64,000 bases of DNA from Gautieria morchelliformis (lineage: Eukaryota; Basidiomycota; Agaricomycetes; Gomphales; Gomphaceae), in the NCBI GenBank assembly GCA_015179125.1, contig WHVA01000009.1:310001-374000 (forward strand), written 5' to 3'. Below the pieces are notes generated by a model, which was not told the origin of the DNA, ran no database searches, and saw only the letters and a list, made by a program, of their open reading frames with translations. How positions within the stretch are numbered: the stretch's first letter is position 1; every line of letters starts with the position of its first letter. Below, piece by piece: positions 5,042 to 32,200 of this stretch. Made by a program: the position numbers and the translations under genes.

Positions 5042-6044
5042 TGTCAAGATTGGTTTTCAAGCGTTAATATCGTGTATTAGTGAACACAGCGAATGCCCGA
5101 ATAACTTGTGTGAAATAAGTATGCCGTTCGGCGAATAGGTGAACCAATGAATGTTCACAAGGTAAGAGGGTTTGCCTAAACGGGGCTCGCCCTATCTACA
5201 GTCATAGCGAAATAGCCCGTGGCTCTTGACAATGTAACCTGCAAGGTCTCACGGAAGGGCTGTCTAAGTCTCGACAATCCCTTCGCCAACAGCACGGAAA
5301 ATGGTTCGAAGGCTAAGGTAACGAAGATGAAGTATGAGAACTCACCAGTGATGCCTAAGTCCTTTGCTGGTCGAAGATAGAAATCACCAAGAGAAGGCTT
5401 AAGACGTGATCACAGTGAGGTCAAGTTTGCACAAGATGCACGACATATGATAATTGAACTGGGGAATATACATGCGAATGTAAACTACTTATATCGAATG
5501 CTCGTATGGTATCAGCGAATAGGAAAGAGGCCGTCACGAGTCAGGGTTGGATAGGGGTGCGCAGTCATGATACTAAGGAGATGGAATAAACATACAATAG
5601 AGTGAGGGAAGAATGCGAACGTGGAACGACGGAGAGTAAAAGGGGGCGAAGGCACTTATGGACAAAACCATGTCTTGGGACCCGCATACATGCTACCCTG
5701 CACGGACTCTTCGTTCACTGGGTTGATCCCGCACAACCTATGGAAGGGGCACCCTGCGAACACACATTGGCCATACGAACACCCAATGGGGTTGGATTAA
5801 GAAGATGATGGGGCTAATGATGAACCATCATGCCGGGTGATTGGTATCGATCATTTTTGATGGCGTGCCTGCTGGCGAAATGCGCGAGCAGTGAACAGCG
5901 GTTTGGAGGGTGAGGCGAACAGCGAGTAGGGTGGATGTAGAGGAGGAGTGGTCGGTAGGTGCGGCGAACTCTGACGAAGATGCTAGGGAGTGACGAGGGG
6001 GAACATGGAGGTAGCACGGTAGGAGAAATAAACCGGTCATGACA
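5042..6044 (-). repeat. Chromovirus LTR (3' LTR of the copy)
   Basis: On the plus strand it starts TGTCAAGATTGG and ends CGGTCATGACA, giving TG...CA termini. The right LTR matches it over nearly its whole length. The same LTR family occurs at 19,331-20,604 and, inverted, at 21,709-22,952. Confidence 0.93.
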
Positions 6045-6300
6045 GTACCCCCTCCTAGCTTCGGAGTCCAACGACGCTGCGTCCTATGGTGGGGCGGAAC
6101 CGTTAAAGACGTAATGGGTCCCCTGATGGGATCTCTGAAGCCTGGGCCCTGCGTAGCTGCGTGGTCCGTGCACGACTTCTTTTTCTGTTTAAAAACGCGG
6201 CACGGAACGGGGCTATGGGACCCATCTAAGCACCCCAGCCCAGCGTACTGCCCCTATGACGACACCTGGGTACTCAGTTCTCCTCGATCGATCGCAGACC

Positions 6301-7015
6301 ATGTCGAGGGTTAGGCCGGAGCTTCGGGGAGAGTCACGTGGGGATGTGGAGCAGTGGTTGGTCGATGCGGCAGGAGTTCAAGTGAGTACCGTTCTTTCTT
6401 TTATTAGCTTTCATTTGCTCAATGATGAGGTCTAGGAGGAGCTTCGGAAAATGCTGAAGGCCAAGGAGGTGGCCGACCAAACATTCGAAAGACCGTCCAA
6501 AGTAGACGAGCTGGCAAAGGAGATTCAGAAAACGAGGGTGTGGTTGGAGAGTTCGTCATCGACATTGGAATCGGTACCCGCAGAAGCGGATATTGACTCG
6601 ACTCCTGCTCCGATCTTTACGCTGACCTCGAAGGGGTGCGAAGGAAGGGAGGTGACTAGGGAGGACCCGGAAGGTATGGTTTCCTTCTGTATTCTTGTGA
6701 CGGCCATCCTAACTCGGTGATGCATTCGGCGAAGTCCCCTACTCTGATTCGCAGTCGGCCGGGGGTATGCCTGGGTCGGTGAAAGCTACAGAGCCTGGCA
6801 GGGTGAGGCGACTGCGCATCTGCTTCGCTCCTGATGGGGAAGGTAAGAGGGCATGGATAGCAGGGGGTATGGTCAGGACGTTGGCCAAGTATTGTGTGCA
6901 ACCCTCGAGTACCCATACTAGCCATCGAAGGGGGGCGAAGAGGTTGATGGGGAGCTCGGAGCATCCGAAGAGGCGTTGGTTGCGGGTGTCGAATGAGTCG
7001 AAGGGAGTTGGGTGA
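6301..7015 (+). other. Antisense gene-like unit inside the chromovirus (copy 1)
   Basis: Between the integrase end and the left LTR, plus-strand (antisense) frame segments resemble those of the second chromovirus copy at 20,784-23,468. The first runs 6,301-6,381, contains VRPELRGESRGDVEQW and stops at a GT donor-like site after a Gln codon, exactly as in the other copy. The second (6,436-6,720) contains FERPSKVDELAKEIQKTRVW against FERPLDVDDLVREVKEVKEW there. A TTTAAAA box lies at 6,188-6,194. The rest of the unit is worn in this copy. The product is unknown; the first part is acidic, helical-looking and rich in Glu. Confidence 0.5.
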
Positions 7016-7099: not shown

Positions 7100-10073
7100 C
7101 TAAGCCTTGGGTTTCTGGGGGTACTTCGCATGAAATTCGGCGAGTCTGCGAGCAGAATTAGTAACATTCGAAGAGGGTTCCCAAGACGTAGCGTCGGGGG
7201 TGTGTTCGTATCCCTTCCACTCTACTAGATATTCCAATCGCTTCCGGCGAATGCGACTATCGAGGATCTTCGTGATCTCGTACTCGTCCGCAGAGTCAAT
7301 TTTGATAGGAGGTGGGGGGTCTGCGTATCGACCTGGGATGGTAGATGTCATGGCGGGTTCGAGAAGGGATACGTGAAACACAGGGTGGATCTGGCGAAGG
7401 TCCAGTGGTAAGCCTAAGCGAAACGCATGAGAAGATATTTTAGCCGTGATAGGATATGGGCCAAGTCTTTGGTGGTCGAGTTTCTTCAAAGGTCGTTTTG
7501 TGCGAATATTTCGCGAGTCGAGCCATACTCTGTCGCTGACCTGAAACTCAGGGATCGGAATGCGGCGAGTGGTTGTGGCCGAAGTGTACTGGATAATTGA
7601 TTTCTTAATTTGATCTCGAAGGTATTGGTGAAGGTCCTTGAGGTCTGCCAACTGGCGATAAGCGTCCTCGGAAGCGACCGAAGTGAGCGATACTTCGAGC
7701 TTTGGATGGAAACCTTTGTTGGCGAAGAAGGGTGTGACCTGGGTCGCTGAATGGGCTGTTTTGTTGTAAGCGAATTCGGCGAGAGGCAAGAGGTCAACCC
7801 AATCATCCTGCTGGTAGTTGATATAAACTCAGAGATACTGTTTGAGGATTTGGTTTACTCGTTCGGTCTGTCCATCGGTTTGGGGGTGGTAGGCTGTAGA
7901 AAGGTTGCCTTTGATGCCGAGGATTTCGCAGAGAGAGGTCCAGAATCGGGATGTGAAGTGCTTCCCTCGATCGGAGATGATGTCGCTGGGGCTACCGTGT
8001 TTGGCGAATACGTGTCGAAGGAAGAGCATGGCGACATCTCCCAAATCGATGTCTGAGAATGTTGGAATGAACAGGGCCATCTTCGTTAGCCTGTCGACAA
8101 TGACAAGGATCATATCGTGCCCGTCTGACGGTGGGAGTCCTTCGATGAAGTCCATGGAGATCGAATCCCAAGGTCGTTGGCTGATGGGTAGAAAGCGAAG
8201 TGGACCGAAGGGTTTGTGATGAATGGACTTAGCGTGGCGACACTTGGAACAGGAGCCGATATAGTTGGTGACAAAGGTGGACATATTCGGCCAATGATAC
8301 TGTCTCCGAATGTTTTTCATCGTTTTGCTGATCCCTGGGTGGCCTGCTAACTGATGATCATGCAGCGAGCGAAGGATGTCCAAGCGAATATCATTATGAT
8401 CGGGGACATACGTTCGCTGTTTGTATAACAGCGTTTTCCCATCCTCTCCAAGTGACCAGGGGTCTGGCTTCACATTCGAAGGGGTGATTGCCAATGACTG
8501 AGACTGAAGACGAGTGATGTGGGCTGAGGATAAGGGATCGGTCAACTGGCCCTGTTGGATGGATGTCAACAGTGATGCAGAGTCAAGGATGATGGCGCGA
8601 ATGAGTTGCCCGGTCTTAAACATTGACTGGAAGTTGTGGGGATTCGCCAATGCGTAAGCACCATCCCCCCCTTTTGGGTACACGTCGCCCCGACGGGTCA
8701 ATGCATCCAGTTTTGTGCCAAGTCGCCCGGCTCGGTAGCGAATGATATAGTTGAACCCTGACAGGTGTTCGGACCAACGGACCTGTTGTCGGGTCAGCTG
8801 TTTCGTAGTTGAGAAGTACTCAAGGTTCTTGTGGTTGGAGAGGACGAGGATGACGTGGGATGCCCCTTCGAGGTAGTTTCGCCATTGCTTGAAGGCACAA
8901 AAGATGGTGAGCAGCTCCTTGTCATAGATCTCGTAGTTCATTTCGGCAGGTGCCATTCCTCGCGAATAAAAGGCGATTGGGTGGATATCACCATCAGAGG
9001 GGGTGATCTGGGAGATGATGGCGGCGATGGTGTAGTCGGAGGCATCCGTCTCGATGACGATCGGGTTATTCGGGTCGAAGTGGATGAGGACTGGGGCCTG
9101 TGAGAACACGGCCTTGAGTGCTTCGAAAGCCTCCTGCTGTTTCGCTCCCAGGCGAATGGAGTATCCTTCCTGGTCAGGCGAGTGAGTGGCAGGATGATGT
9201 CGGAGAACGAAATGATGAATCTTCTGTAGAAGTTTGCAAAGCCTAGGAATGATTGGACTTTGCGAACGTTCGTCGGTGCAGGCCACTTTGTGATTGCAGC
9301 TGTTTTTTCGATGTCCATAGAGACCCCAGCAGGAGAGATGATGAATCCGAGAAACTCAACCCAGTTCGAATGGAAGAGGCACTTCTCTGGCTTTATGAAG
9401 AGGTTGTGTTTCCGAAGACGGGCGAGGACCATTCGGACATGCTCTAAGTGATCCTCCCTGTTCTTGGAGAAGATAAGGATGTCGTCGAGGTAGACTACAA
9501 CGAAGACGTCAGCCATGTCTTGGAAGATGTCATTCATGAAGTGTTGGAACGTTGCCGGAGCATTCGTTAACCCGAACGGCATGACGAGATATTCGAAGGA
9601 CCCATATCGTGTTCGGAAGGCTGTCTTCCATTCTTGGCCAGAGGCGATCCGAACATTATTGAACCCGGCGCGAAGGTCGAATTTGGTATAGACGTCGCAC
9701 TTTTGAGTTGGTCAATAAGACTCGGAATCAGTGGGATAGGGTACTTGTTCTTTCGCGTGATATGATTCAGCCCTCGATAGTCCACACACATTCGCAGTGT
9801 GCCATCCTTCTTTTTCGCGAAGACAATGGGGGCGCCACCGGGTGATTGGGAGGAGCGGATAAATCCCTTGCCGAGCATGTCTTCGAGATATTCGCGGAGA
9901 GCCTCTAATTCGCTGTTTGAGAGTGGGTATATGGGGCCGTGAGGCAGTGTGCCATTGTTCTCAATTTCAATGGTGTGGTCATAAGGTTGATGTGGGGGCA
10001 GGTCTTTGGCTTTAGCACGCCAGAAGATATCGAAGAAGTCGTGGTACTCCTCTGGTACCACAGCCCTGAACAT
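7100..10073 (-). mobile_element. Chromovirus pol region: reverse transcriptase, RNase H, integrase, chromodomain
   Basis: Minus-strand frames show the reverse transcriptase ([18 protein letters not shown], then [18 protein letters not shown] and [13 protein letters not shown] with the catalytic YLDD), RNase H ([18 protein letters not shown]), a zinc-binding integrase start (LRSLHDHQLAGHPGISKT), an integrase core (DSISMDFIEGLPPSDGHD, DIISDRGKHFTSRFW) and a C-terminal chromodomain (ITKILDSRIRRKRLEYLVEW, DATSWEP). The chromodomain places it in the chromovirus branch. The region is a fossil with about three breaks. Confidence 0.93.
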
Positions 10074-10157
10074 TTCTAACTTGTCCTTTGGTAGAGGGTT
10101 TTCGTGGAGGAGTGTGGTCGGGCTGGTGCGTTGCCGACAGCATGAAGTGAATTGGGC

Positions 10158-11138
10158 TCAGGGATGGAAGGGTGCATGTTTAACATGATAGGTTTCTTCT
10201 TCGCCAAGTTTCATGATTAGCTCGAAGGCGGCTGCGCTGATTAGGGTTATATGCGGCGTTACCCTCCTCGTTGGAGGTGGATCAGGAGGTGAAGAGTGGA
10301 ATGGGAGGTGGTCATCGATCAGTGATTCTGCGTATGGTGTACAGGAACGAAAATGACTCGGAGTAGGCTCTGTTTTTGGTCGAATAGGTTCGGTCTCTAT
10401 TATGGGTTCTTTCGTGGCTGAAAATGGACGAATGAGATCGTTAGGAAGTGATATAGAGGACTCAGAGGAGTGATTCTCGATCAGCTTGGTTGAAAGAAGT
10501 AAGGGTTCGCCATCCACGTCGAATGTCTGTTCGTAACCAGAAAGATTCGGAATAGGAGCGGGCGAAGATGCGACGTCTGGTGGAAGGACCGGGACGTAGG
10601 AGAGTGGTCCAATCGCCATGTTCAGGATATAACCCAAGGATGGCGGGGACGAATGCGAACCAGGAACTGGCGGTGGCGATGTCATCGACGCAGTGTGGAG
10701 TTCGGGGATACTGTCGAAGATAGTCGGCGGGGAAATCATCGTACAGGCCATGGCGACCGTCATACGTGGAAGCATGAAACCGGTGCTGGAAGGAAAGGTA
10801 ATTGAGAGAGTGCCCCAATCGATGGTGGGCTTCGTAGAGCGAAGCCACGGAAGCCCAAGAACGATCGCGGCCGAAGGGTGTAACTTTGTGACAAGTAGCG
10901 AAATGTCCTGAGAAGAGGAGTCGCTGAAGGTGAGACTAGTATCTAGGTATTCGTGAATGAAACCAGCAGTGGCTGGCTTTCTGTCGAAAAGGGAGAAAGC
11001 GATCGGCGAACGGAGTGATGTACATATGAAACCAGGATGAGAGGAAAAGGAGCTATCAATAAAATTGGAAGTGGCACCAGAGTCAATGAGAGTAGGGATT
11101 GAGTTAGGTGTACAGAGGTGTAAGATGGTTATCGGCAA
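10158..11138 (-). mobile_element. Chromovirus protease and Ser/Pro-rich linker
   Basis: A minus-strand frame near the 5' side of the element has the retropepsin signature TLIDSGATSNFIDSSF and, further on, VLGLPWLRSTKPTIDWGTL. A long Ser/Pro/Thr-rich linker follows and leads toward the reverse transcriptase. A tandemly repeated version of part of this linker exists in the second copy at about 23,800-24,310. Confidence 0.85.
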
Positions 11139-11159
11139 GAGTTGTGGAGAATGAGTCAG

Positions 11160-11450
11160 AGTCTAATAGGAGAGATGGCCCAGGTCCGCCAAGTAGGGCA
11201 GAAAGCTGTGCGAAGGATTGATACCGGGGAGGGCGACCCATGAAGGGGTAAGGCTATCCCGCGAATAGACGAGGCTCAGGCCCGCCAGGCGAGGCAGGAA
11301 TCTGTAGAGAGGGGTGATGAAGAAGAGGTTGTCCCACGAAGGGAAATAGGGCAGGCCTGCCAAGTGGGGCAGGAATCTAGCGAATGTTAGGTGTGGGAGA
11401 GGCGACCGTTGAAATGGGGGGGCTGTCCCGCGAATAGATGTGGCGTGAAA
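11160..11450. repeat. Three imperfect tandem units of a gag-leader-like sequence
   Basis: Units of about 75-95 bp recur at roughly 11,172, 11,278 and 11,352. Each has a GCCxGCCAxGxGxGGCAGrAA core and later a TCCCrCGAA core. The same cores occur in the proline-rich leader of the gag frame at 26,330-26,480, so this block looks like an amplified remnant of that leader. Confidence 0.6.
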
Positions 11451-11505: not shown

Positions 11506-12580
11506 TGTCAAGATTGGTTTTCAAGCGTTAATATCGTGTATTAGTGAACACAGCAAATGCCCGAATAACTTGTGCGAAATAAGTATGCCGTTTGGCGAAT
11601 AGGTGAACCAATGAATGTTCACAAGGTAAGAGGGTTTGCCTAAACGGGGCTTGCCCTATCTACAGTCGTAGCGAAATAGCCCGTGGCTCTTGACAATGTA
11701 ACATGCAAGGTCTCACGGAAGGGCTGTCTAAGTCTCGACAATCCCTTCGCTGGCAGAGGTGCTCCTTCAGAGCCCTTCGCCAACAGCACGGAAAATGGTT
11801 CGAAGGCTAAGGTAACGAAGATGAAGTATGAGAACTCAGTTGGGGTTAGGGTTAGGGGTTAGGGGTTAGGGTTGGGGTTAGGGTTGGGGTTGGGGGTTAG
11901 GGCTGGTCGGAGATAGAAATCTCCAAGAGAAGGCTTAAGACGATGATCACAGTGAGGTCAAGTTTGCACAAGATGCACGATGTATGATAATTGAACTGGG
12001 GAATATACATGCGAATGTAAACTACTTATATCGAATGCTCATATGGTATCAGCGAATAGGAAAGAGGCCGTCAAGAGTCTGGTTGGATAGGGGTGCGCAG
12101 TCATGATACTAAGGAGATGGAATAAACATACAATAGAGTGAGGGAAGAATGCGAACGTGGAACGACGGAGAGTAAAAGGGGGCGAAGGCACTTATGGACA
12201 AAACCATGTCTTGGGACCCGCATACATGCTACCCTGCACGGACTCTTCGTTCACTGGGTTGATCCCGCACAACCTATGGAAGGGGCGCCCTGCGAACACA
12301 CATTGGCCATACGAACACCCAATGGGGTTGGATTAAGAAGATGATGGGGCTAATGATGAACCATCATGCCGGGTGATTGGTATCGATCATTTTTGATGGC
12401 GTGCCTGCTGGCGAAATGCGCGAGCAGCGAACAGCGGTTCCGAGGGTGAGGTGAACAGCGAGTAGGGTGGATGTAGAGGAGGAGTGGTCGGTAGGTGCGG
12501 CGAACTCTGACGAAGATGCTAGGGAGTGACGAGGGGGAACATGGAGGTAGCGCGGTAGGAGAAATAAACCGGTCATGACA
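11506..12580 (-). repeat. Chromovirus LTR (5' LTR of the copy) with telomere-like patch
   Basis: It starts TGTCAAGATTGG and ends CGGTCATGACA on the plus strand. It matches the left LTR closely but differs in length at two places: a short extra block near 11,750-11,780 that is also present in the LTR at 19,331, and a TTAGGG-like patch at 11,839-11,903. Confidence 0.92.
11839..11903 (+). repeat. Interstitial telomere-like repeat (TTAGGG / TTGGGG / TTAGGGG)
   Basis: About ten tandem units of GGTTAGGG, GGGTTAGG and GGTTGGGG type occupy about 65 bp inside the right LTR. In the left LTR the matching place carries ordinary LTR sequence of about 22 bp (CCAGTGATGCCTAAGTCC...). Basidiomycete telomeres are commonly TTAGGG, so this reads as telomere-type DNA patched into the LTR after insertion. 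Confidence 0.85.
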
Positions 12581-12585
12581 TGAGT

Positions 12586-13543: not shown

Positions 13544-14985
13544 GTGATGTCCTACATGCTAGAACCATCGCCAAAGAGACTGAGAATATACCAACAAAAT
13601 CTCAATAAATCCGACAAGGCCCGATACGACCTCATCAACTCTACAATACACATGGAGCAAGACCTAATACTGCTGCAAGAGCCCTATATAGACATGCTGG
13701 GAAACACGAAGGCTAATCACAACTGGCGAGTACTATATCCTTCTTCTCATCTTACTGACCCAGCTGCCAAGCGTTCAGTGATATTGGTGAACACAGCGCT
13801 GGACACCAACATATGGTCACAAATTTCTTTCACTGCATCAAACGATGTGACGGCAGTCCAGCTCAAGCACCCTCGAGGCAAGATAATGATTTTTAACATC
13901 TATAATGATTGTGAGCACTCGGCGATGCTGAGGGCCATCGACAGCTATGTCAACTCGGAGTGGAATCGCATCATCCAACACGAGATGGATTCCCTGATGT
14001 GGTGCAGGGATTTCAACCGGCACCACCCCATGTGGGACGAGGAGAGGAACCACCACCTATTCACGGCAGTGGCAACCAGGGCTGCGGAGGAGTTGATCTC
14101 CCTCCTAGCAGACTACAACATGGTTATGACATTGCCAAGGCGCCTCCCTACCCTACAGTCCATGTCTACAAAAAATTGGACGCGAGTCGACAACGTGTTC
14201 TGTACAGATAACATAGCTGACTCGATTGTCATCTGCGATACTGCGCCGGGAAGAAGAGGGCCTGGCACTGACCACGTGCCCGTCCTCACAACACTCGACA
14301 TCGACGTCGAGGTCAAGAAACCGGAACCATTCCACAACTTCAGAATGGTCGACTGGGGTGGCTTCAGGGAACAACTGGCCGAGCAGCTTGAGGCAATCCC
14401 AGACGCGAGGGAACCAGGTGCCATGGCTGAGTTCAATGAGATGGTCAGTGCGCTAACAGTTGCCATCCAGGACACCATCGAAATTGCCGTGCCGCTGTCA
14501 AAGCCAGTGCCACACTCGCGTTGGTGGTGGACTAGGGAGCTGTCAGAGCTGAAGAAGAAAAAGAATAGGATAAATCATCAGTCTTATAAGCACTGCGCCT
14601 CTGCTGACCACCCCTGTCACGAAGAACACAGGGAGATAAGTGAAAAATACGGCAAAGCGATCAGCAAGGCCAAGGCACAGCACTGGGCCGACTACCTGGA
14701 AGGGTTGGACGAGGGATTGCTATGGACGGCGAATAAATACCTAACTAATCTGGCCACTGACAGAGGGAGGTCCCGGATTCCCTCACTGCACACCGTGGAC
14801 AGCAATGGCGTCGCTAGTACAGCAGAGACCAACGAAGAAAAAAGCAGGGCTCTTGCCACAGCTTTTTTTCCACCCAGACCCGCTGAATCACAGGTCCCCC
14901 CAGGCTACCGGTACCTGAGACGAGTGAACCACTCATTCCAGCTAAATGAAGACCAGCTCAGGCATCAGATATGCAAGCTGAATTG
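13544..14985 (+). pseudogene. LINE (Tad/I-like) ORF2 fragment: endonuclease domain without reverse transcriptase
   Basis: A 482-codon frame encodes an exonuclease-endonuclease-phosphatase domain of a non-LTR retrotransposon. Its motifs are IYQQNLNKS, DLILLQEPYID, DFNRHHPMWDEE, the Tyr/Arg-Asp segment NWTRVDNVFCTDN and the catalytic GTDHVPV near the end. A basic linker follows (HSRWWWTRELSELKKKKN). The usual GDFN is RDFN here. The frame ends HQICKLNCT, where a LINE would normally continue into KLN.YKAPG and the reverse transcriptase. Instead the sequence switches to unrelated DNA at about 14,985. Loss of the 3' rather than the 5' part is unusual for a LINE and points to later recombination. 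Confidence 0.88.
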
Positions 14986-15344
14986 CACGTAAATGTGCCA
15001 ATCTGGAGTGCATGGAGCACATCATGAGTGATGGTTATTGGGACAATGTTGATACTGAATGCATACATGCCGCTCCATGCATGCACACTGTCCTTGAGAA
15101 GCACCCAGTGGTGCAACGACACCTAGGTTGGGTTCCACCAGCATCAGTAACACCAGGTAAGCACTCTAGCTCTTAGCACCCCATGTTGAACATCCTTCTC
15201 CATTGATCACCAGGCCAGATGATGCCTCTTTCAGCCCAGTGCCACACAGTTTATAGTTGGGGCGACCTGTTCATGCGCAGCAACATACAATATCCAGATA
15301 GGCCCCATGAGCCTAACTCTCTGTGGAATGATGCTATCACTGTG
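14985..15344 (+). pseudogene. Unrecognised split ORF fused to the LINE end
   Basis: A frame with no stop reads CANLECMEHIMSDGYWDN to LGWVPPASVTPG and ends at a strong donor (CCAG|GTAAGC, intron 15,156-15,213). It continues in frame after CACCAG as QMMPLSAQCHTVYSWGDLFM to LWNDAITV and a stop at 15,344. The spliced frame and codon pattern suggest part of a real gene captured at the LINE breakpoint. I do not recognise a family, and no start codon belongs to it. Confidence 0.4.
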
Positions 15345-19330: not shown

Positions 19331-20604
19331 TGTCAAGATTGGTTTTTAGGTGTTAATATTGTGTATTAGTGAACACAGTGAATGCCCGAATGACTTGTGC
19401 GAATAAGTAGGCCGTTCGGCGAATAGGTGAACCAATAAATGTTCACAGGATAAGAGGGCTGCCCGAGCGGAGCTCACCCTATCTACGGTCGTAGCGAAAT
19501 AGCCCGTGGCACTTGACGATGTAACGTGCAAGGTGTCACGGAAGGGTTGTCTAAGTAGCGACAATCCCTTCGCTGGCAAAGGTGCTCCTTCGGAGCCCTT
19601 CGCCATCAGCACAGAAAATAGTTCGAAGGCTAAGGTAACGAAGATGAAGTATGAGAACTCACCAGTGATGCCTAAGTCCTCTCCTGGTTGAAGATAGAAA
19701 TCTCCAGGAGAAGGCTCAAAACGATGATCACAGTGAGGTCAAGTTTGCACAAGATGGACAACGTATGATAATTGAACTGGAGAATATACATGCAAATGTA
19801 AACTACTTATATCGAATGCTCGTAAGGTATCAGCGAATATAGGAAAGAGGCCGTCATGAGTCAGGGTTGGATAGGGGTGCGCAGTCATGATACTAAGTAG
19901 ATGGAATAAACATACAATAGAGTGAGGGAAGAGTGCGAACATGAAATGATGGAGAGTAAAGGTGGCGAAGGCACCTATGTACGAAATCATGTCTTGGGGC
20001 CCGCATATACACCGCCCTGCACGGGTTCTTCATCTGCTGGGTTGATCCCACATGACTTACGGGTAGGACGTCCCGCAAACGCACCCTGCTCATATGAACA
20101 CCAAAAGGGGGTTGGACCGAGAAGCTGATGGAGCTACTGACGAGCCATCATGCCGGGTAGGGATATTGATCGTGATTTGATGGTGTGCCTGCTGGCGAAT
20201 GATGCGAGCAGCGAATGGCTGTTCAGTGAAATGCGAGGAAGGGCTAACAGAGATGACATAGGGCAGGAGTGGTCGAGGTGGAGGGTGAAGCCGAGCGAAC
20301 ATGGGGCAGGAGTGGCGAAAGGGGAAATGGGGATAACAAGGTGCAGGAAATACACAAGTCATGACAATCCAATCATAGGAACATCATCGAAAGAGGGTTG
20401 ATCAGAGGAGGTGATAGGCCCAGCGATGACTGCCATGTCAGTCCAAAGATGTCAATCATGCTTTGACGGCATGGCTATGGTAAATGGCGCGAACAGTGAA
20501 GATCGGTTGCCGAACACAGTGAGGGCGATCGGAACGAACACGGAGGTGGAGTGAGAAATGGGAGAACAGGGCATCTGAGTATAGGAAATAAACGCGTCAT
20601 GACA
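19331..20604 (-). repeat. Chromovirus LTR, copy 2
   Basis: The plus strand starts TGTCAAGATTGGTTTTTAGG and ends CGCGTCATGACA. It is longer than the LTRs of copy 1 and clearly diverged from them. It is followed by GTATCCCCCTCCTAGC, the complement of the purine tract. Confidence 0.92.
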
Positions 20605-20728
20605 GTATCCCCCTCCTAGCTTCAGAGTCCAACGACGTAGTGCTCTGGGTGGGGGACGAGTCTGAGGACGTAATAGTGCCCCCGACACGATCTCTCACCA
20701 CTTGGTCCGTGCACGGCTCAGCCCTGGG

Positions 20729-20738
20729 TTTTAAAAGG
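20729..20738 (+). promoter_or_regulatory. TATA-like box of the antisense unit
   Basis: TTTTAAAAGG stands 46 bp upstream of the ATG at 20,784. A TTTAAAA occurs at the matching place in copy 1 (6,188-6,194). This suggests the antisense unit has its own promoter rather than using the LTR. Confidence 0.4.
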
Positions 20739-20783: not shown

Positions 20784-23468
20784 ATGGCCTCTAACGAGTC
20801 TTCCTCTCTCTCTGTGCTCATCGAGCGAACGCGGGTCAAGCTGAAGGTTCGTCCTGACCTTCGGGGAGCCTTGCGCGAAGAGGTGGAGCAGTGGGTTGCC
20901 GAGGCTGAAGAACTCCAGGTAAGAGAGCTCCCCTATCAAGTGTTTCGCTGACCACCCCATCACAGGCCAAGCTGCGTACCACATTGCGTGTCGAAGCGAT
21001 CGCGGATCCCAACTTCGAACGTCCGTTGGATGTGGATGACCTGGTGAGGGAGGTGAAGGAAGTGAAAGAGTGGCTTGGGAGTGTGGGTTTCTTAGTTAGC
21101 CCAGAGTTCCTTGATGCCGGGATGAATGTGGTGCCAGAGCTGACAGTGTCGCAAGGCCCGTCGAAGGAACCCGAGGTAGTGGGGGATGCTGCGAAGGAGC
21201 CCAGAGTCGAGGGGGACAGTATGAGGGAGCCTGAAAGTACGTGACACATGTTTGTTTGCTGGCCATCCTGACTCGAAGTCCTCTCGAAGATCCCGCTCGT
21301 GCAGCTGAGCCTTTTGCTGGATCACCTGGACAATCAGCCACAGTCCAGCCCGTGCGCACGAAACGGCGGCCCATGTTCCTGTCGTCTGAAGATGAAGGCA
21401 AAAATACACGAACACCGAAGAAGGCTCAGAAGGAACGCGCTCGGAGTCCTACACCAGAGATCGTCGCAATCGAGCCAACTCCTGCCCATCGTCGCAAGGG
21501 TCGGGCGAATGCACTGGTTAGCGAATCGGACAAGATCCCACAATTGGTGGTGAAACATGGTTACCCCAAGCATGCGTATTTGCTCGGCTGGCTGATTTAT
21601 AACGGGGTAAGCAGCATAGTTTTTTGTTGAAGTAATTCGCCCGCTGACTGTGTGCTTCTCCATAGCATGAGGTACTGAAGAGGCCTGCGAAGTGTGGGCG
21701 ATGCCTTCTGTTATGACGTGTTTATTTCTCATACTCAGATGCTCTGTTCTCCCATTTCCCACTCCACCTCCGTGTTCGTTCCGATCGCCATTGCTTTGTT
21801 CGGCAACCGATTCTCGCTGTTCGCGCCAATTATTATAGCCATGCCATCAACGCACAATCGACATCTTGGGGCTGACTTGGCAGTCATCGCTGGGCCTACT
21901 ACCTCCTCTGCTCAACCCTCTTTCGATGGTGTTCTGATAATCGGATTATCACAACTTGTGTATTTCCTGCACCTTGTTACCCCCACTTTCCCTTTCACCA
22001 CTCCTCCTCCGTGTTTGCCCAGCTTCACCCTCCACCTCGACCACTCCTCCCCTCCATCATCTCCGTTCACCCTTCCTCGCATTTTGCCGAACAGCCATTC
22101 ACTGCTCGCATCATTCACCAGCAGGTACACCATCAAATCACGATCGACATCCCTACCCGGCATAATGGCTCGTCAGTAGCTCCATCAGCTTCTTGATCCA
22201 ACCCCCTTTTGGTGTTCATATGAGCAGGGTGCATTCGCGGGGCGTCCTACCCGTAGGTCGTGTGGGATCAACCCAGTAGATGAAGAACCCGTGCAGGGCG
22301 GTGTATATGCGGGCCCCAAGACATGATTTCGTACATAGGTGCCTTTGCCACCTTCACTCCCCAAGACATGATTTCGTACATAGGTGCCTTTGCCACCTTC
22401 ACTCTCTGCTGTGACTCATGACAGCCCCTTTCCTATTCGCTAATACCTTACGAGCATTCGATATAAGTAGTTGGCATTTGCATGTATATTCCCCAGTTCA
22501 ATTATCATACGTCGTCCATCTTGTGCAAACTTGACCTCGCTGTGATCATCGTCTTGAGCCTTCTCTTGGAGATTTTTATCTTTGACTAGCAGAGGACTTA
22601 GGCATCACTGGTGAGTTCTCATACTTCATCTTCATTACCTTAGCCTTCGAACTATTTCCTGCGCTGTTGGCGAAGGGCTCCGAAGGTGCACCTTCGGAGC
22701 ACCTTCGCCGGCGAAGGGATTGTCGCTACTTAGACAGCCCTTCCATGACACCTTGCATGTTGTATCGTCAAGTGCCACGGGCCATTCGCTACGACTGTAG
22801 ATAGGGCGAGCCCCATTCGGGCAACCCTCCTATCTTGTGAACATTCATTGGTTAACGTATTCGCCGAACGGCATACTTATTTGCACAAGTCATTCGGGCA
22901 TTCGCTGTGTTCACTAATACACAATATTAACGCCTAAAAACCAATCTTGACACCTTCCCTATGGTCATACCTGCAGTGGCAAGGCGGGGAAGATGTGTGG
23001 GCGATGCATTCGTGATCGCGAGGGCTGTATCGCGGCAGAGGGTAAGTCTCCTCCTTTTCCATTCCTCCTACACCGTTCAAACTCATGTGGAGTCCTTGTC
23101 CCTCCTCTAGAGTATGTGGCGAAGGACGAGAAGGATGGTCGAGAGCCAGAGGTGAAAGAGCGAGGGTCGAAGGGGAAGAGCAAGGGGAAGGCGAAGGAAA
23201 AAGGGTCGACGACGGGTCCGTCCTCGGTTTCGTCGAAGGGTGTCCTTGGTAAGCCTGTTGTGCCCTCCTTCCAAGCATCTTTGGCTGATTCTCAGATACC
23301 TCCGAAGGCACCCGAACATCTACGCTGGCCGGCGAGGAGAGGATGGAGGAGTTGGTGGAGAGGTCAAAGGAGCTGATGAGGAGTGTGTCCTGGAAGTTGC
23401 ACGATTTAAGCGGAGAGGTGTTAGAACTAGAGGGGGTTCAGGTGATGATCAGGAAGTTAACAAAATAG
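20784..23468 (+). other. Antisense gene-like unit inside the chromovirus (copy 2)
   Basis: Plus-strand frame segments run opposite to the retroelement. They lie at 20,784-20,918 (starts MASNESSSLSVLIERTR), 20,966-21,240 (LVREVKEVKEWLGS), about 21,290-21,610 (basic, with TKRRPMFLSSEDEGKN and HAYLLGWLIYNG), about 21,665-21,708, 22,990-23,040 (CGRCIRDREGC), 23,109-23,250 (Lys-rich) and 23,325-23,468 (MEELVERSKELMRSVSWKLH, helical). Intervals between them begin with GT and end with AG. A CxxC pair stands on each side of the nested LTR. Similarity to copy 1 is at the protein level. The product is unknown; a helical N-terminus, a possible zinc-binding Cys cluster and a basic middle are what can be seen. 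Confidence 0.5.
21709..22952 (+). repeat. Nested solo chromovirus LTR, inverted, with CCTTC target duplication
   Basis: This 1,244-bp block begins TGTTATGACGTG and ends CCAATCTTGACA, the reverse complement of the family LTR. CCTTC stands directly before (21,704-21,708) and after (22,953-22,957). It is a solo LTR from an insertion into the antisense unit of copy 2. Inside it a 45-bp unit (CCCAAGACATGATTTCG...) is tandemly duplicated at about 22,314-22,404. Confidence 0.95.
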
Positions 23469-23799
23469 AGTAGAGTTTGTGATATTTTTGTGTGAACATA
23501 GAAGCGTTCTTTCTCTTGAAGCTCTAGATGGTGTCCTAAGCCTTAGGTCTCTTCAGGGACTTCGCGTGAAAGTAGGCAAAAGTGGCTCTAAGCGAATTCA
23601 ACTGGAGGTGTTGGTGAAGTTGTGCGAAGGGCGCCGAAGTGATTGCCAAGTTTTCTGAATGTAGGGGTTGTGAGGGTTTGTCCAATGCTCAAGCACCCAT
23701 CCCCCCCTTTATGGTACATGTCGCCCCGACAGGTAAAATGTGTGAGGGTGGTTCGGGATGCTGGTGGAAGACAGAATGGTTCGCTATCCGTGTTGAATG

Positions 23800-24310
23800 T
23801 CTGGTGGAAGGACCGAGGTGTAATAGAGTGGTCCAATCGCCGTGTTCGGGGTGTAGCCCAAGGATAGCGGGGACGAATAACGAGCAGCGTTATGGAGGAC
23901 TCGGCAGAGTGATGCTCGGTAGGCTGTGTGGAGGTAGCGAATAGTTTGCCGTCCATGTTGAACGTCTGCGCAAAAACAGAAAGATTCGGGATAGGAAAGG
24001 GCGAAGAAAAGGAAAGACACCTGGTGGGAGGACCGAGGTGTAATAGAGTGGTCCAATCGCCGTGTTCGGGGCGTAACCCAAGGATAGTGGGGATGAATAA
24101 CAAGCAGCGATATGGAGGACTCGGCAGAGTGATGCTCGATAGGCTGTGAAGAGGTAGCGAATAGTTTGCCGTCCATGTCGAACGTCTGCGCAAAAACAGA
24201 AAGATTCAGGATAGGAAAGGGCGAAGAAAAGGAAAGACACCTGGTGGAAGGACCGAGGTGTAATAGAGTGGTCCAATCACCGTGTTCGGGGTGTAACCCA
24301 AGGATAGCGG
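23800..24310. repeat. Tandem repeats of about 220 bp in the chromovirus linker
   Basis: Starting with GGAAGGACCGAGGTGTAAT, a unit of about 215-225 bp is present in two full copies and one partial copy (starts near 23,805, 24,029 and 24,246). The copies differ by only a few per cent. Copy 1 carries a single version at about 10,490-10,640. On the element's own strand each unit encodes the same Ser/Pro-rich linker. Confidence 0.85.
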
Positions 24311-24639
24311 GGACGAGGATTCGGAATGTGTGGTGAAGGTAACCGAAGAGTGTTACTTTGTTCCAAGTGGTGAAAATATCTGTTGGAGTGAAGTTGCTGA
24401 ATGAGACGAATATCTACGTGTTCGGCGAACGAGACAAGTAGTGGCTAGTGTGCTAGCAAGAAGAAGGAAAAGGAGACATCATTTGGGAGTTGGGGCGATG
24501 GATTTTTAAGAACTAGGATGAGAGAGGAACGAGTTATCAATGAGATTTGGAGTGACACCAGGGTCGATGAGAGTAGGAAGGAATTAGAGACTGGGAAGGT
24601 GTACATGGGTGGGGAGGGCTGTTGTTCGAAGGAGTAAAA

Positions 24640-25370
24640 CGATCCATTCTTAACACCACAGAGGAACCGCAAGCTAATCTTCCACAGGAGAGCTTTCGCT
24701 GTCTTCGGGAACTTCTTCGAGAATCGCAACCTGAGGGTCGCCTTCAAGGGTGAAGATTAATATAAATCAGATTAAGGGGTTGGAGTCGAGTGGTTAATAG
24801 TGTGATGGAGAGCTCAAGCAGTGTTCTGGTGAGAGATAAAAGCAATGTTCTAGAGTTCTAGAATTAAGCAATGTTCTTGGTGCAATAAGAGTTGAGGAGG
24901 AAACAATAATAGTCCAAAGAAGCTTATAACTTGAAGCTCTAGGGAAAAAGATTGTTAAGTCGCTTGTTTATTCTAGTGTAGAGTCCAAGTATTTAAGCAG
25001 TGTAGGATAGGAGGAAATAATCATGTGAAATATGATGCTACTTAGGGGATAGGAGCATAATGATGTCAACAGTGATGCAACAGCTCCTATGTGGCTAATC
25101 TCTTCATAAATGATGGAGATGATGCAATAAATGATGTCAGACCAGTGGAATGACGACTCGACTCGATAATAGGCATGAAAATGAACTCTTAACTCAATGG
25201 TACGCATGTCTGCGCCTCGACTCGATGTTTGACTCATGGTACGCATGTATGCACCTCGACTCGACTTGGAATGATGGGAAAATAAGGTGAGTGATAAGAG
25301 AAATGAGAAGTGAGATTGTCCTGATTGAAACTGTCCTTCCTCCTCCAATAACAAAGATAGCCCTGCCAGT
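24640..25370. other. Gene-free stretch between protease and gag remnants
   Basis: This segment has no counterpart in copy 1 and no clear coding signal. It contains repeated AGCAATGTTCT words near 24,815-24,880 and a duplicated GGTACGCATGT motif near 25,200-25,245. It may be an inserted fragment. Confidence 0.35.
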
Positions 25371-25454
25371 GGTTGAGGCAGACTCCTGAAAGCGGCACCC
25401 CTTCGCGTGATGTGTGGGGGGTTCGCCGCAATAAGGGCAAAGGCCTTTGTTTTT

Positions 25455-26828
25455 TCATCGCTCTTTCTCAGCTTCAGTCAGACGTCCGGTGGCATCGAGG
25501 ATACCGGAAAGATCTTTCTGTTCGTCGGGCTTGGCTGCGGCCGAGGGTCTGGGTCGAGCGTTAGCACGTGGCATAGAAGAAGGTTCGGAAGAGGAAGGGG
25601 GACGAATAGAGGTTGTAATCTGCTTTTTGCCTTGGCGCTCCCAGTAGCGATTGTCAATGCGAAGAGCCTGACGTTTGAGGTCGTCGAGGCTTTCAGGACG
25701 TTTGTAGGAGAGCATGTGGTCTTTGATGCGCTCGGCGAGGCTGTTGTAGAAAGTGTCGTAATGGGCAGCATCGTTCCACTCGACATAAGAGGACAACTCA
25801 GCAAATGTGGTCATGTGGCGATTGACACAATGGGTGTCGAGCATCTTGAGCCTGTGAATAGCTCGCTTGGACACCTGGATGATGTTGGCCTGACCGAAAA
25901 GATGGTTAAGTTCATCGACAAAGATAAGCCAGTTGCTCCGAATGGGAGGCTCTGGGACCTGAATGAGAAAAGGTTGCCACCAGATCAAGGCAATGTCGCT
26001 GAGGTAGGATGCTGCGTAGGAGACTCGCTGTCGCTCCTGCTGGAACTTTCGGGGCTTGTTGTTGAAGACCATAATACAACTAGTGATGAATGTTCGGAGA
26101 AGGCGAGGTTCTTTCCCTGTGAATTTGTCAGGCTTCGCAGCATAAGAATCACCATCAGGGGCGGCCTGAGGGTAGGCGAAAGGAAAGGGATAGTAAGGGT
26201 TCCATGGGAACCATGGTTGCGGCCAAGGCCCTCCACCAGGGGGTGGAGGTGGGCCAGGAGGTCTGGGGGGCCTGGGTGGCCCAATCAGACATACTCCGAA
26301 ATGGGGAAATGGTGGCCCGAGAGGTGGTGGAGGAGGCGGTACAGGCCCGCCAGGTGGGGCAGGAATCTGGGCTGGAGGTTGGTACAGGGGAGGTTTTCCC
26401 GCAAACGGGTGAGGTTGCCCTGCGAATGGAGGCGGGGCACCTCCGAATGGCAAAGCATTCGGATCATAATAGGGCACGCCACTAATGGGATAGCCAAGAT
26501 GTTGTTCGGGCGCAGGGTCAGTGTGGTGTCCCTGGTCCGCCAAAGGTGCCTCGCGAGGGGGTGTCTGTTGAGAACTGACTCGAGTATGGTCACTATGTAC
26601 CGAATGGTGAAGACTGCAAAGAGCCTGCAAAGAGTGCGAAGACGCATGTGAGTGATGCGAATGAGATGAAGATTTCTGCAAAGCAGGTGTGTGAGCCCGA
26701 GATTCCACATGTACAGGGGTGGTATGCCTAGAATTGAGAGGAGGTGTAGGCTGGGAGTTAGGAGGATGCTGGGCGTAGTGCACGTCGAGAAAAGGATTTG
26801 GAGTGTGACTAGGCAAAGCAGGTGGCAA
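25455..26828 (-). mobile_element. Chromovirus gag region
   Basis: A 457-codon minus-strand frame has a Ser/His-rich start, a long Pro/Gly/Phe-rich section (GGPVPPPPPPLGPPFPHFG) and a retrotransposon gag core (KPDKFTGKEPRLLRTFITSC, ALIWWQPFLIQ, FGQANIIQVSKRAIHRLKML, DAAHYDTFYNSLAERIKDHM). Its 5'-side sequence is cut by the Helitron boundary. No zinc knuckle could be made out with confidence. The region is a fossil, and this frame itself is long and open. Confidence 0.85.
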
Positions 26829-26849: not shown

Positions 26850-29289
26850 TTGTAATCAGAGTCCTGTAGGCTCTGGTGCTGTAGCTCAGTTGGCACCACC
26901 CCCTCCTGTCCCTGTAGGCTCTGCAGCAGTAGCGGCATTGCAGGCCCAGGCTGCTAATGCCCAGATAGCACCTCCTCCTCCTGTCCCTGTAGGCTCTGCA
27001 GCGGTAGCTGCGTTGCAGGCCCAGGCTGCTAATATCAATCCTAGACCTCTGGCACAGCAAAGACAGGGACGATGGCATGCACGGAACCCTGAACCTCTCC
27101 CAGATGAGATTGCCATTGTGCTCCCTGGAGAAGGTGTGCCTGGAGGCAATAGAGACATTGCCCTTCAGCTTAGAGGTGGAGAACTGCAATGAATTCAGGC
27201 CAAACATGCTTTGTATGCGCCACTACACTATGTCCTTCTCTTTGCCAGAGGTGAATCAGGCTGGCATTGGGACATTCCACGGATAGACCAAGCTCTTCCA
27301 CGACAAGGCCAGGAGGAGGAGGAGGAGGACCCTTCAAGTGACAGGCGTGTGACCATGTCAAAATACTATCGTTATCGTCTTTTTCCAAGGGAGGGTGAAG
27401 CTGAAACTCTCTTCCTGGCTGGCAAGCTCTTTCAGAAATACATTGTGGATGCTTGGGCAGCAACTGAACAGCAGAAGCTAAATTGGATCAAATTTCATCA
27501 ACATGAGCTGCAAGCTGAGGTCTACAATCAGATGATTGATACATTTGGACCTGAGGACAATCAGGCCAATCCAGCTAACTTGGGAAAAAAGGTCATCTTG
27601 CCTGCTACATTTACTGGGAGCGCCAGGGATATGAATGAGAATTTTCAAAATTCAATGGCGATCACTAGGAAGCATGGTCCAGCAGGTGTCTTTGTGACAA
27701 TGACAGACAATGACAGCAAACCCCCTGTGGAAGGAAATCAAAGATGCTCTCAAGCCAGGCCAGACTCCCAGTGATCATCCTGACTTGGTTGCAAGGGTTT
27801 TTGATCTCAAGAAGGAGCAATTGATCAAAGGATGGTATCCTTGGTCGCACAGTTGCACGTGTCCATGTGATTGAATTCCAGAAGCAGGGGCTCCCTCATA
27901 TGCACCTTCTTATATGGTTTAAAGAGGAGGATAAGATCAGGACACCGGAAGCTGTGGACTCTTTGGTTTGGGCTGTCTTTCCTGATCAGCAAGAGCATCC
28001 AAGCCCCTACAAATTAGTTTGTGATCTAATGACTCACGGCCCCTGTGGACAAGTGCATCCTCAGTCTTCTTGCATGACAGAGGGCAAGTGTTCTAAACAT
28101 TTCCCAAAGGAATTTCATGAGGTGACATCTATCAATGAAGATGGCTATCCACAGTATCGCTGTCCTAATGATGGCAGATGGCAAAATGTCAAAGGCAACG
28201 TCATGGACAACCGTGACGTGGTTCCCTATTGTCCCACCCTCCTCTTGGAATTTGAATGCCATATTAATGTGGAACCCACTTTCAATGTGCGCTCTATCAA
28301 GTACATTCACAAGTATATGTACAAGGGGCCCGACAGGACCACAATGGCCATTAATAAGGAGAGGGATGAGGTTAAACAGTACCTTGATGCATGCTATGTC
28401 AGCTCACATGAAGGTGCTTGGAGACTGCTGGAATATAAAATGCATGTTCAGGTCCCTGCTGTTATGGCACTTCCAGGCATGGCTTTGCAGAGGGAGGAGG
28501 GTGCTAAGACCATGCTCATGGCCTATTTTGAAGCCAATCACAGATATCCTGAGGCACGTGAACGACTCTATGTGGAATTTCCTGAGCACTATGTCTGGGA
28601 GAAGCCAGCCAAGCAGTGGAAACCTCGCCAGCAGGGTTTCAGTCTCGGTCGCCTTTATTTTGCAAGTCCAGCCTCTGGCTTACAGTTGTCAGAGGAGCAA
28701 CATCATTTGAGGAGCTTAGATCATTTGATGGTGTCCTTTGTCCTACTTACAAGGCTGCATGCCTGGCAAGGGGCCTGTTAGAAGATGATTTAGAGTGCAC
28801 ACAGTGTCTTCAGGAGGCTGCACATATACAAACAGGTTTCCAGCTCAGGAGGTTATTTGTCACTATTTTCCTTCGGTGTAACCCTGCTCAGCCTGCTCAA
28901 ATCTGGGAGGAGTTTCAGGAGCATATTTGTGATGACCTGGAGTATCAGCTTCAAAATAGGCATGGCATTCACCATCCTACCAATGATCAAACCTATGACT
29001 TTGGTCTCTTTCTCATTGACAAGATCATACGTCAGGGGGGGAAGTCTCTGGATGAGTTCCCAGATATGCCACAGATAGTGGGGCACTGGGAGGGATTGGT
29101 AGGGAACCGTTGGATAGCTGAGCAGCAGGACTATGACCCAGCTACAGAGCTGGAAAAAGCTGCCACCAATATTGACAAGCTTAATGCCGAACAGAGGTGT
29201 GTCCATGATGAGATCCTCCATTCAGCCATAAATGGAGAGGGTCTTCTGTTCTTTGTCAATGGCCCTGGTGGTACAGGCAAAACTTTTAC
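26850..29289 (+). pseudogene. Helitron Rep/helicase relic, truncated after Walker A
   Basis: Plus-strand blocks give, in order: an N-terminal Ala/Pro repeat (two units of PPPPVPVGSAAVAALQAQAAN), a Helitron-like N domain (FTGSARDMNENFQNSMAITR), the HUH relaxase motif GLPHMHLLIWF (His-x-His), a YLDACYVSSHEGAWRLLEYK region, the Tyr motif KYIHKYMYKG, and the helicase start DKLNAEQRCVHDEI, then FFVNGPGGTGKTF (Walker A). The copy has one in-frame TGA near 27,190 and frame changes near 27,720-27,860 and 28,660-28,690. The rest of the helicase and both termini are missing. The right edge abuts Gypsy integrase sequence. Confidence 0.9.
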
Positions 29290-32200
29290 CTCGTTGATGA
29301 AGAGGTGGGGATATTGCTCTAGCTCCTGATTGACCGGTTCCATCTGCCCGTCACTCTGTGGATGGTATGCTGTAGTGGCAGCCAGCGAGCTTTATTCCAA
29401 GCAGGCGGTAGAGCTCCCGTCTCAGTTACTCAACAAACTGTGGACCCAGTCAGAAATGACTTGCTTCGGGAGCCCATGCGGCTTCCAGACATGCACAAGG
29501 AACAGGTGGGCCGCTCCAAGGGCGATCGTCGTGTGCATCAGAATGAAGTGGGACACCTCACTGGAAGCATATAAAAATTTTCTGGTCTGAAAAACTGTTC
29601 AAAAAACTGTAAAGATATTCCAAAATTTTTTAGTGTTTTTAATGTAAAAAAACTTTAACAAGTTTTTGAGGTTTTGTTAGAATTTGTTGAGCAAGAAAAT
29701 TGTAAAAAAGTTTTTTGCATGGTTTTTTATGTCTTTTTATAAGTTTCTTTGTGAAAACAAAAGGAAACCCATAAAAAACCCTGAAAAAAACTTGGAATTG
29801 TTTTACAATTTTCTTGCTCAACAAATCCTAATAAAAACACAAAATTTTATTATATTTTTTACATAATGTCTTTTGATAAGTTTCTTTGTGAAAACACAAA
29901 GAAACCCATAAAAAACCCTGAAAAAAAAAAACTGGGAATTGTTTCAGAATTTTCTTGCTCAACAAATTCTAATAAAAACACAATATTTTATTATATTTTT
30001 TACATAAAAAACACTATAAATATTTGGAAAATATTTACAGTTTTTTCAACAGTTTTTCAGACAAGAAAACTTTTATATGCCTGCAGTGCCTTGCTTACCA
30101 AGTCTACAACATTCATGATCGTGTCGCAGCCATGAGACTCTGGGAGTTCAACAATGAAGTCAACACTGATGGTGTCCCTGCGGGATTCCAACCAGCTCTC
30201 TGATGCCGCTGTGCTTTGGTCCAGAGGCAAAGGTCGCACATCTTCACATACTGTCCAATGTAGTGTGACATCTGAGGCCACCAGTAGTTCCAAGCCACTA
30301 ACTCCAGCATCTTCCACCTGCCAGCGTGCCCTGTGACCCAGGTGTCATGGTGTTAGGACATGATGTGGTGGTGGAGGTCCACCCCATCTGGAACATAGAC
30401 CTTGCCCCTGAAGTGGAGCAAGCCATCATGTTCTGACCACTCTGCTGCCCGCACTGACTGCAAGTGCCCTTTCCGCAGATCCGCCACCACCTTCACCACT
30501 GATTCCTCCTTCTCTCCATTCCAGTACTGCCTCCAGATGTCCTGGAGCATTTCTGCTTCCTCCCAAACTGCAGCCACTCCTTCGAGGGCCCGGATTTCAA
30601 AGAGGTTTGGGTGGAGCAATGTCATGTTGGCATTGTCTCCACTTCCACTTCCATGATCCATTTGGCGGGACAGGGCATTGGGCTTGCCCATGGTGTGGCT
30701 GGGGCAGTGATGGAGCATGAAGTTGAACTGGGACAGGTGTAGGGACCACTGTGCCTGTCGTCAGTTCAATTCTTGGACATGCGGAAGTACTCAAGGTTCT
30801 TGTGGTCTGTCCATATCTCGAACAGGCACAGAGCACCCTCAAGGAAGTGTTGCCACTCCTCCAGCACTTGGATGATTGCCAGCATTTCTTTGTCATGGAT
30901 CTCATATTTCCACTCCACCAGACTAAGGCTTTTGGAGAAGAAAGCAATCGGATGCCACCTCCCACCATCTTCCGATGACTGTTGTGACAAGACTACTCCA
31001 GTGGCTGCATCTGAAGAACCTGCTTCAACTCAATAAGGGCGAGAGTCGTTGGGAAAGATCAGGACCAGGGCAGAAGTGATCACCTCCTTGAGTTTGTCAA
31101 AGGAGGCCTGTTCCGGCTCCCCCCACCACATCCAACATCCTTCTTGGTGAGGTTGAAGAGGGCATGAGCATGGCAGGAGAAGTCCTTGATGAACCACCAG
31201 TAGAAATTGATGAACCCAATGAAGGACTGGACTTCTTTCTTGTTCTGTGGTGTAGGCCATTCTGACACGCCAGAAACCTTGACTGGGTCCATCTCCACCA
31301 TTCCTTCCAACACGATCACCCCAAGATACTCTATCTGTGTCCACTCAAATTGGCACTTCTCCGGCTTGAGACACAGGTTGTACTCCCAGAGCCATTCTAG
31401 CACTCTCTGCACAATCTCTCAATGTTCCAGCAGTGTCTTTGTGAAGATGAGGATGTCATCAAGGTAGATGCAGACAACCCCTTCCACTATGATGTCATGG
31501 AAGATGTCATTCATCATCATCTAGAACGTCGCAGGACTGTTGGTGAGGCCAAAGAACATGACCTGCAGCTCAAAGAGTCCTCAGTTGGTGCAAAATGTGG
31601 CCTTCCACTTGTCTCCCTCGTGGATCCAAACATTGTTGAAACCCCAGTGGACATCCAGCTTAGTGAAGTACCTTGCACCTCAGAGTTGTGTGATCAGTTC
31701 AGAAATGAGTGGAATGGGGTACCAATTCTTGATCATGATCACATTCAAGGCCCAGTAGTCCTGCACAAGTCCGAGCGAGCCATCCTTCTTCTTGATGAAG
31801 AACACCAGAGATGCCATGGGTGACTTGGAGAGGTAGATCCTTGAGCTCTACTTGCTCCCTGAGCGACAGCAGGTAGACCTTACAGTTGGTGGGCTTTGAC
31901 CCAGGCTCCAACTCGATGGCATGGTCCCACAGCTTCCGTAGAGGCAGGGCATCAAACAAACTCCTTTGCAAAGACATCCTCGAACTCCCACAGGTACTCC
32001 GGAATCTCCATCTCCACTTTATCATGCTTCCTGGAGGCTTCTGCAAGGCGTTGTGAAATGTTTCCAGTGGCGTGGACGTGTTCTGCTTCCAGTGAAAGGT
32101 TTACATACAGCAAGTGTTCCCCTTCCACCAAAGTGTCTTCCGGGCTGATTCGGATGACATCAGAGTTGGAGTCGGAAGAGGGAGTGGGAGCTGGTTCATA

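Follow-up and report, generated by a model that had tools for sequence, protein, structure and literature searches.

An antisense gene beside the 3' LTR in gag-bearing and pol-bearing chromovirus elements of Gautieria morchelliformis

Here we describe a gene that lies antisense to two long terminal repeat (LTR) retrotransposon copies in a 64,000-nucleotide stretch of the genome of the basidiomycete Gautieria morchelliformis (contig WHVA01000009.1, positions 310,001 to 374,000; hereafter the window, with positions counted from its first letter). One copy (element 1) bears pol, the other (element 2) bears gag, and both carry a version of the gene on the strand opposite to their own. An initial annotation of this DNA had reported frame segments on that strand in both copies, a GT donor after the same Gln codon, TTTAAAA-type boxes, CxxC pairs and a Lys-rich block, all of which we find where it had placed them. 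The features of both elements are summarized in Table 1.

Element 1 is a chromovirus, i.e. a Ty3/gypsy element with a chromodomain: PF00385 is matched after the integrase (E 6.4e-12), the Pfam domains rve and RVT_1 were also matched, and the protease match lies slightly under the cut-off. Its LTR pair is identical at 969 of 996 aligned bases, and its antisense exons, on the plus strand, are located after the end of the integrase and before the polypurine tract. The first of them had been read from 6,301; the segment is real, but the ATG at 6,256 is the likelier start because a relative (L051) has no ATG at the 6,301 position. Exon 3 diverges near its end from the common 94-amino-acid version, and the exon encoding the cysteine cluster described below (the zinc exon) was not found after it in element 1. 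The 5' LTR of this element also holds CCCTAA telomere-like repeats (11838-11902) where its 3' LTR is ordinary; such repeats have five matches in the window against 0.12 expected.

Element 2 had been taken for a second integrase-bearing chromovirus, but it contains no integrase; it carries gag, and of pol it retains only a remnant. Its 5' end is missing, as homology to complete relatives stops near 26,869. The antisense gene of element 2 comprises six exons and approximately 380 codons between 20,784 and 23,468, the span first proposed for it, although 21,709-22,952 within this span is not part of the gene; it is a solo LTR that was inserted later in exon 4, so that the window copy of the long gene is interrupted. 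The introns are short, as suits a fungal host. An insertion of about 600 bases between gag and the tandem repeats (24757-25353) has a flanking homology overlap of about 5 bases, resembling a target duplication, and short tandem repeats together with Helitron_like_N and PIF1 helicase frames (26869-29329) adjoin the point at which the element is cut off.

Table 1. Features of elements 1 and 2 in the window, with strand and supporting remarks.
Feature	Position	Strand	Remarks
Element 1, LTR element	5,042-12,580	minus	Target duplication TGAGT flanking both ends
Element 1 3' LTR (pol family)	5042..6044	(-)	TGAGT duplication at 5037-5041
Element 1 antisense gene exon 1	6256..6381	(+)	ATG 6256; inner ATG 6301 is the earlier reading
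Element 1 antisense gene exon 2	6436..6673	(+)	Among the top 80 matches in the genome, 71 stop-free and 64 adjoining a listed integrase match
Element 1 antisense gene exon 3	6735..7015	(+)	Final exon detected
Element 1 pol region: protease, reverse transcriptase (RT), RNase H, integrase, chromodomain	7100..11162	(-)	Pfam
Element 1 5' LTR	11506..12580	(-)	TGAGT duplication 12581-12585; contains telomere-like repeats
Element 2 3' LTR (gag family)	19331..20604	(-)	80.6% identity to element 1 3' LTR
Element 2 polypurine tract, adjoining 3' LTR	20605..20620	(-)	Near-identical to element 1 tract
TATA-like TTTTAAAA box	20729..20736	(+)	About 54 bases ahead of ATG
Element 2 antisense gene exon 1	20784..20918	(+)	
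Element 2 antisense gene exon 2	20966..21236	(+)	
Element 2 antisense gene exon 3, basic	21290..21606	(+)	Acceptor 21289/21290 or 21304/21305, each in frame
Element 2 antisense gene exon 4, part 1 (Zn2Cys6-spaced cluster)	21666..21708	(+)	
Solo LTR of gag family within exon 4	21709..22952	(+)	CCTTC duplications 21704-21708 and 22953-22957
Element 2 antisense gene exon 4, part 2	22953..23041	(+)	22953-22957 is the duplicated target site
Element 2 antisense gene exon 5, Lys-rich	23111..23248	(+)	
Element 2 antisense gene exon 6 through stop codon	23296..23468	(+)	
Pol remnant: RNase H-integrase linker	23590..23800	(-)	
220-bp tandem repeats, typical of gag family	23801..24316	(.)	
Element 2 gag	25323..26306	(-)	One stop in match; Retrotrans_gag found in relative L031

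A search of the 122-Mb genome to which the window belongs revealed at least 199 places matching exons 1-2, in keeping with the expectation that the segments would recur in other copies of the family, and at least 172 places matching a query made of the exon 3 end and the zinc exon; roughly 100 relatives of the antisense gene are present in the genome. Gene anatomy and selection were analyzed in 22 near-complete gag-family copies, in each of which over 300 codons could be aligned. The ATG and a TATA-like box near -54 are each present in 21 of the 22, the GT and AG of introns 1, 3 and 4 are kept in every copy, and intron 5 keeps its GT in 20 copies and its AG in all 22. Transcription from the gene's own promoter, with splicing of these introns, is inferred from such signals.

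The median pairwise ratio of nonsynonymous to synonymous substitution rates (dN/dS) of the antisense gene is 0.28 (231 pairs), which is far under 1, as the initial annotation had anticipated for a genuine gene. Four of the five other frames of the same DNA gave values of 0.94, 1.06, 1.07, and 1.28; the fifth (0.38) is a sense-strand frame that shares the wobble positions and has a median of 5 stops. Identity between copies is 0.90 at codon positions 1 and 2 versus 0.79 at position 3. Given that copies decay through CpG transitions (21 of the 26 stops in the 22 copies are TGA), a tree-based count that keeps the mutation classes apart was added. Internal branches carry 0.37 of the nonsynonymous changes expected, and 3 stops where 23.6 would be expected. 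The terminal branches gave an overall ratio of 0.59, 22 stops versus 38 expected, and a ratio of 0.95 for CpG changes, a pattern of decay after insertion. In the gag gene of the same family, dN/dS is 0.23 (13 copies, 78 pairs), and the antisense gene is therefore about as constrained as gag. Two simpler readings of the open frames were considered and set aside. Chance open frames are ruled out by the frame controls together with the CpG-aware branch test, and coding on the sense strand across the gene is unsupported, the three sense frames having medians of 8, 5, and 10 stops.

Some observations nonetheless count against a functional, selected gene. The reference splice sites of intron 2 are poorly kept (GT in 17 of 22 copies, AG in 9), although an alternative acceptor 15 bases upstream, seen in 18 copies, accounts for most of the misfits. 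Only 6 of the 22 copies are intact, that is, without an in-frame stop or a frameshift indel within the aligned exons, and in 5 of these 6 at least one exon is aligned at least 1% short of its full length. In the pol family, a single readable relative was available, and the pooled dN/dS of the three exons is near 0.7, with constraint visible solely in exon 2; because this value comes from one pair, selection in the pol family rests on the open frames found in many copies. These points taken into account, we consider it nearly certain that the antisense gene is real and under selection.

It is highly improbable that the antisense RNA, rather than a protein, is the functional product, acting for instance in copy-number or small interfering RNA control. 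Antisense transcripts of LTR elements can indeed feed RNA silencing (PMC7264820), and such a role could coexist with that of a protein, but the dN/dS of 0.28, the codon-position bias, the kept splice sites, and the scarcity of stops on internal branches all reflect selection on a protein.

The distribution of the gene follows that of the elements. Among the family integrase matches listed (n = 105, identity at least 67%), 77 have a match to the gene on the opposite strand within 1.2 kb past the integrase C-terminus and 87 have one within 3.5 kb, and this LTR lies directly upstream of the gene in 25 of 30 fetched loci (the window's own included), so that the gene does travel with this LTR family, as had been suspected. 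None of the 45 integrase matches at 47-57% identity adjoins the gene as represented by queries from elements 1 and 2 only. The zinc exon, among the 92 matches listed, stands beside gag in 48 cases, beside integrase in 8, beside both in none, and beside neither in 36. By its position between pol and the 3' LTR and opposite to gag-pol, the gene belongs to the class termed aORF-3R; as in that class, it is present in most copies of the family and is conserved like other element genes in the gag family, while for the pol family it is the presence of the gene that was shown.

The 36 zinc-exon matches that have neither gag nor integrase as a listed neighbour leave room for a free host copy and thus speak against an origin and role within the elements. 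Combined with the introns and the TATA-like box, which are to be expected of a gene captured in antisense, they could suggest a host gene that the elements picked up and carry either passively or for the benefit of the host. We regard such a capture as very unlikely, given that two versions of the gene occur in two families, with an antisense frame in the corresponding position of a third (see below), that passive carriage conflicts with a dN/dS of 0.28, and that the neighbour matches listed are an incomplete set. That the gene is an accessory gene of the elements themselves is a conclusion we hold with great confidence.

The long antisense protein (approximately 380 residues) starts with an N-terminal part containing FERPxxVDxLxxE, followed by a basic stretch, a cysteine cluster, a Lys-rich stretch, and a charged C-terminus. 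The cluster, encoded by exon 4, is of the form C-x2-C-x6-C-x7-C-x2-C-x6-C, and all six cysteines are whole in 21 of the 22 copies. The fungal Zn(II)2Cys6 binuclear cluster has the consensus C-x2-C-x6-C-x5-12-C-x2-C-x6-8-C, and the exon 4 spacing fits this pattern. Membership in the Zn2Cys6 group is, however, not claimed, because the spliced protein matches PF00172 only at an E of 2.6 (8.7 bits versus a cut-off of 21) and the AlphaFold model of the zinc exon alone is poor (mean predicted local distance difference test score, pLDDT, of 52), points that weigh against the explanation proposed below. No relative of the zinc region was found among solved structures (best E 2.5), NCBIfam gave no relevant match for the antisense protein, and no relative was confirmed in prokaryote genomes. 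The nucleic-acid-binding product that had been proposed thus stays plausible in view of the six-Cys cluster and the Lys/Arg blocks, but neither a significant Pfam match nor a reliable fold model backs it.

In a working model, transcription would start at a promoter of the gene itself, near the 3' LTR, and the protein would bind DNA or RNA in the nucleus as a regulator to the benefit of the element that encodes it; the LTR or its chromatin could, for instance, be the target. We put the identity of the product as a nuclear regulator, judged from sequence features, at a little under an even chance. Another possibility is that the product serves the particle or the integration complex, through nuclear import, packaging, or targeting, and not transcription. 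The gene has been retained next to gag in one family and next to pol in the other, which fits such a role, and the basic blocks and the six-Cys cluster are compatible with RNA or DNA binding; but the antisense product would be made separately from Gag-Pol and no sequence pointer to packaging is apparent, so this alternative appears unlikely. Selection in copies devoid of pol implies that the gene benefits its carrier element, either directly or via a partner. The introns probably persist because, being antisense to the genomic RNA, they would escape splicing ahead of reverse transcription. Taken as a whole, the account of an accessory chromovirus gene that is antisense beside the polypurine tract, spliced, selected for its protein, and encoding a nuclear nucleic-acid-binding regulator has, in our estimation, about equal chances of being right or wrong.

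The two families to which elements 1 and 2 belong are complementary in gene content. In the four examined gag-family copies whose LTRs are both whole (pairs 97.7-99.1% identical, each copy with a 5-bp duplication), the stretch between the tandem repeats and the 5' LTR contains gag, and no match to RT or integrase was found between the LTRs. In the pol family, 36 of the 39 further places scored, out of 2,327 candidates, have approximately 95-120 bases from the LTR-leader piece to the protease piece, which leaves no room for gag; of the remainder, one has about 580 bases and two are without a second piece. Only 3 of the 108 integrase matches listed have a copy of this gag upstream within 15 kb in the same orientation, namely those at loci C251, C243 (6.1 kb), and C434 (13.6 kb). 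Neither family therefore combines gag and pol as an autonomous LTR retrotransposon does: that of element 1 is without gag and that of element 2 without pol. The two families share their LTR ends, their polypurine tract, and the opening bases that follow the 5' LTR. The antisense gene likewise exists in two versions, a short one in the pol family, in which exons 1-3 only were found and the zinc exon is lacking, and a long one with the six-Cys cluster in the gag family.

A third chromovirus family extends this picture. At locus L050, an integrase 44% identical to that of element 1 is adjoined by antisense exons 1-3 that resemble those of element 2, followed by a different C-terminal antisense frame with an acidic end. 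This frame (L050:6245-6559, minus strand) ends strongly acidic, in Ser, Glu, and Asp. Most of its best 150 matches (of 385 candidates) are stop-free, with frames up to 344 amino acids, and the best 150 matches to L050-type integrase ends (of 3,260 candidates) include frames up to 1249 amino acids. In 101 of the 150 listed, frame and integrase end pair on opposite strands, 126-166 bases apart, indicating that the third family also has an antisense frame right after its integrase. This family is larger and younger-looking than those of elements 1 and 2. L050 itself may be a recombinant, and homology of the upstream exons of the third family to exons 1-3 here is unproven. With the L050 frame recurring beside integrases in this manner, the idea that the gene is confined to the family of elements 1 and 2 was given up.

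The complementary content suggests that the gag and pol families may replicate with mutual help, Gag being supplied by one and Pol by the other. Potential donors exist elsewhere and weaken this proposal: C251 (integrase 56% identical) represents a complete family with gag and pol, and pol frames of as many as 1249 amino acids occur in the third family, so that these chromoviruses could supply Gag or Pol. The distant chromovirus at C251:30425-35598 has gag and integrase 3.4 kb apart, long open frames, and no antisense match beside it with these queries. Since the third, abundant family could act as a donor, our confidence in cooperation was lowered from somewhat better than even to an evenly balanced judgement. 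The alternative, that each family is defective and parasitises complete chromoviruses with no cooperation between the two, is a tentative but serious one. Long open pol frames are common (12 of 42 integrase matches at 47-49% identity lie in 1257-amino-acid frames, in addition to those of the third family), yet the shared start of the leader, polypurine tract, and LTR termini of the two families are harder to reconcile with independent parasitism, and purifying selection on gag (0.23) is not needed by pure parasites. The fullest form of the cooperative reading is a bipartite chromovirus whose Gag and Pol are split over two high-copy LTR elements that have leader, polypurine tract, and LTR termini in common, an intron-bearing antisense regulator being kept by each in its own version, one with and one without a zinc cluster, and such regulators being regularly present in several of this genome's chromovirus families; we advance it as a speculative possibility that is unlikely to hold in every part.

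Antisense genes at this position are already known in plants and in the fungal element Boty, and the antisense gene brtn in Boty of Botrytis cinerea was reportedly described by Zhao et al. in 2011. The initial annotation's remark that it knew of no such fungal chromovirus gene is consequently not supported: brtn is an additional antisense gene between pol and the 3' LTR (PMC7264820; PMC4227169), and a Boty-like element is given as comprising gag, RT, integrase, and a chromodomain plus brtn (PMC4227169). Like the gene described here, brtn occupies the pol-3' LTR interval of a fungal (in its case ascomycete) Ty3/gypsy element with a chromodomain; unlike both families here, the Boty-like element combines gag with pol, and the two genes are compared by description only. 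Retand elements of plants have antisense TRP28 genes with suspected DNA binding, tandem repeats, and non-autonomous members (PMC11963269). They are, however, of a non-chromovirus lineage; PF04195 (TRP28) is not among the three Pfam matches of our spliced protein at E ≤ 10 (matches above about 0.1 being mostly filtered), and introns are not mentioned in that source. For Grande gene23, an own promoter and a nuclear protein have been reported (PMC7264820). Grande gene23 and the antisense open reading frames of RIRE2 belong to plant elements and are likened to the present gene by description only. The HBZ gene of human T-cell leukemia virus type 1 (HTLV-1) has a spliced form and encodes a basic leucine zipper protein; its promoter lies in the 3' LTR, and no homology to the gene here is claimed. 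HBZ, too, is encoded antisense to a retroelement, and its product is nuclear (PMC11963269).

Separation of gag from pol also has precedents, and the gene content here differs from them. The lack of gag in the pol family recalls BARE-2, which is said to be an element living without GAG. In Athila, pol-less elements have gag and env under purifying selection (PMC2410132). Unlike either, gag-only and pol-only families coexist here in one genome, and each keeps an antisense gene. Among the open-licence papers searched we found no description of the six-exon structure, the cysteine cluster, or versions in gag-only and pol-only families, no paper that treats an antisense open reading frame together with a chromovirus, and none that brings together an antisense gene, a gypsy LTR retrotransposon, and Basidiomycota. 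The function of LTR-retrotransposon antisense genes has been called unknown (PMC7264820). About a hundred copies under purifying selection, with six exons, a cysteine cluster, two versions, and a further frame in a third family, make the question of that function directly testable. Antisense carriage, moreover, suggests a way in which a retroelement may retain an intron-bearing gene, and, if the pairing of the two families is true, they would constitute a naturally split LTR retrotransposon.

Between the two elements, the window also contains a frame with an endonuclease-reverse transcriptase domain (13403-14992) resembling that of a long interspersed nuclear element (LINE).
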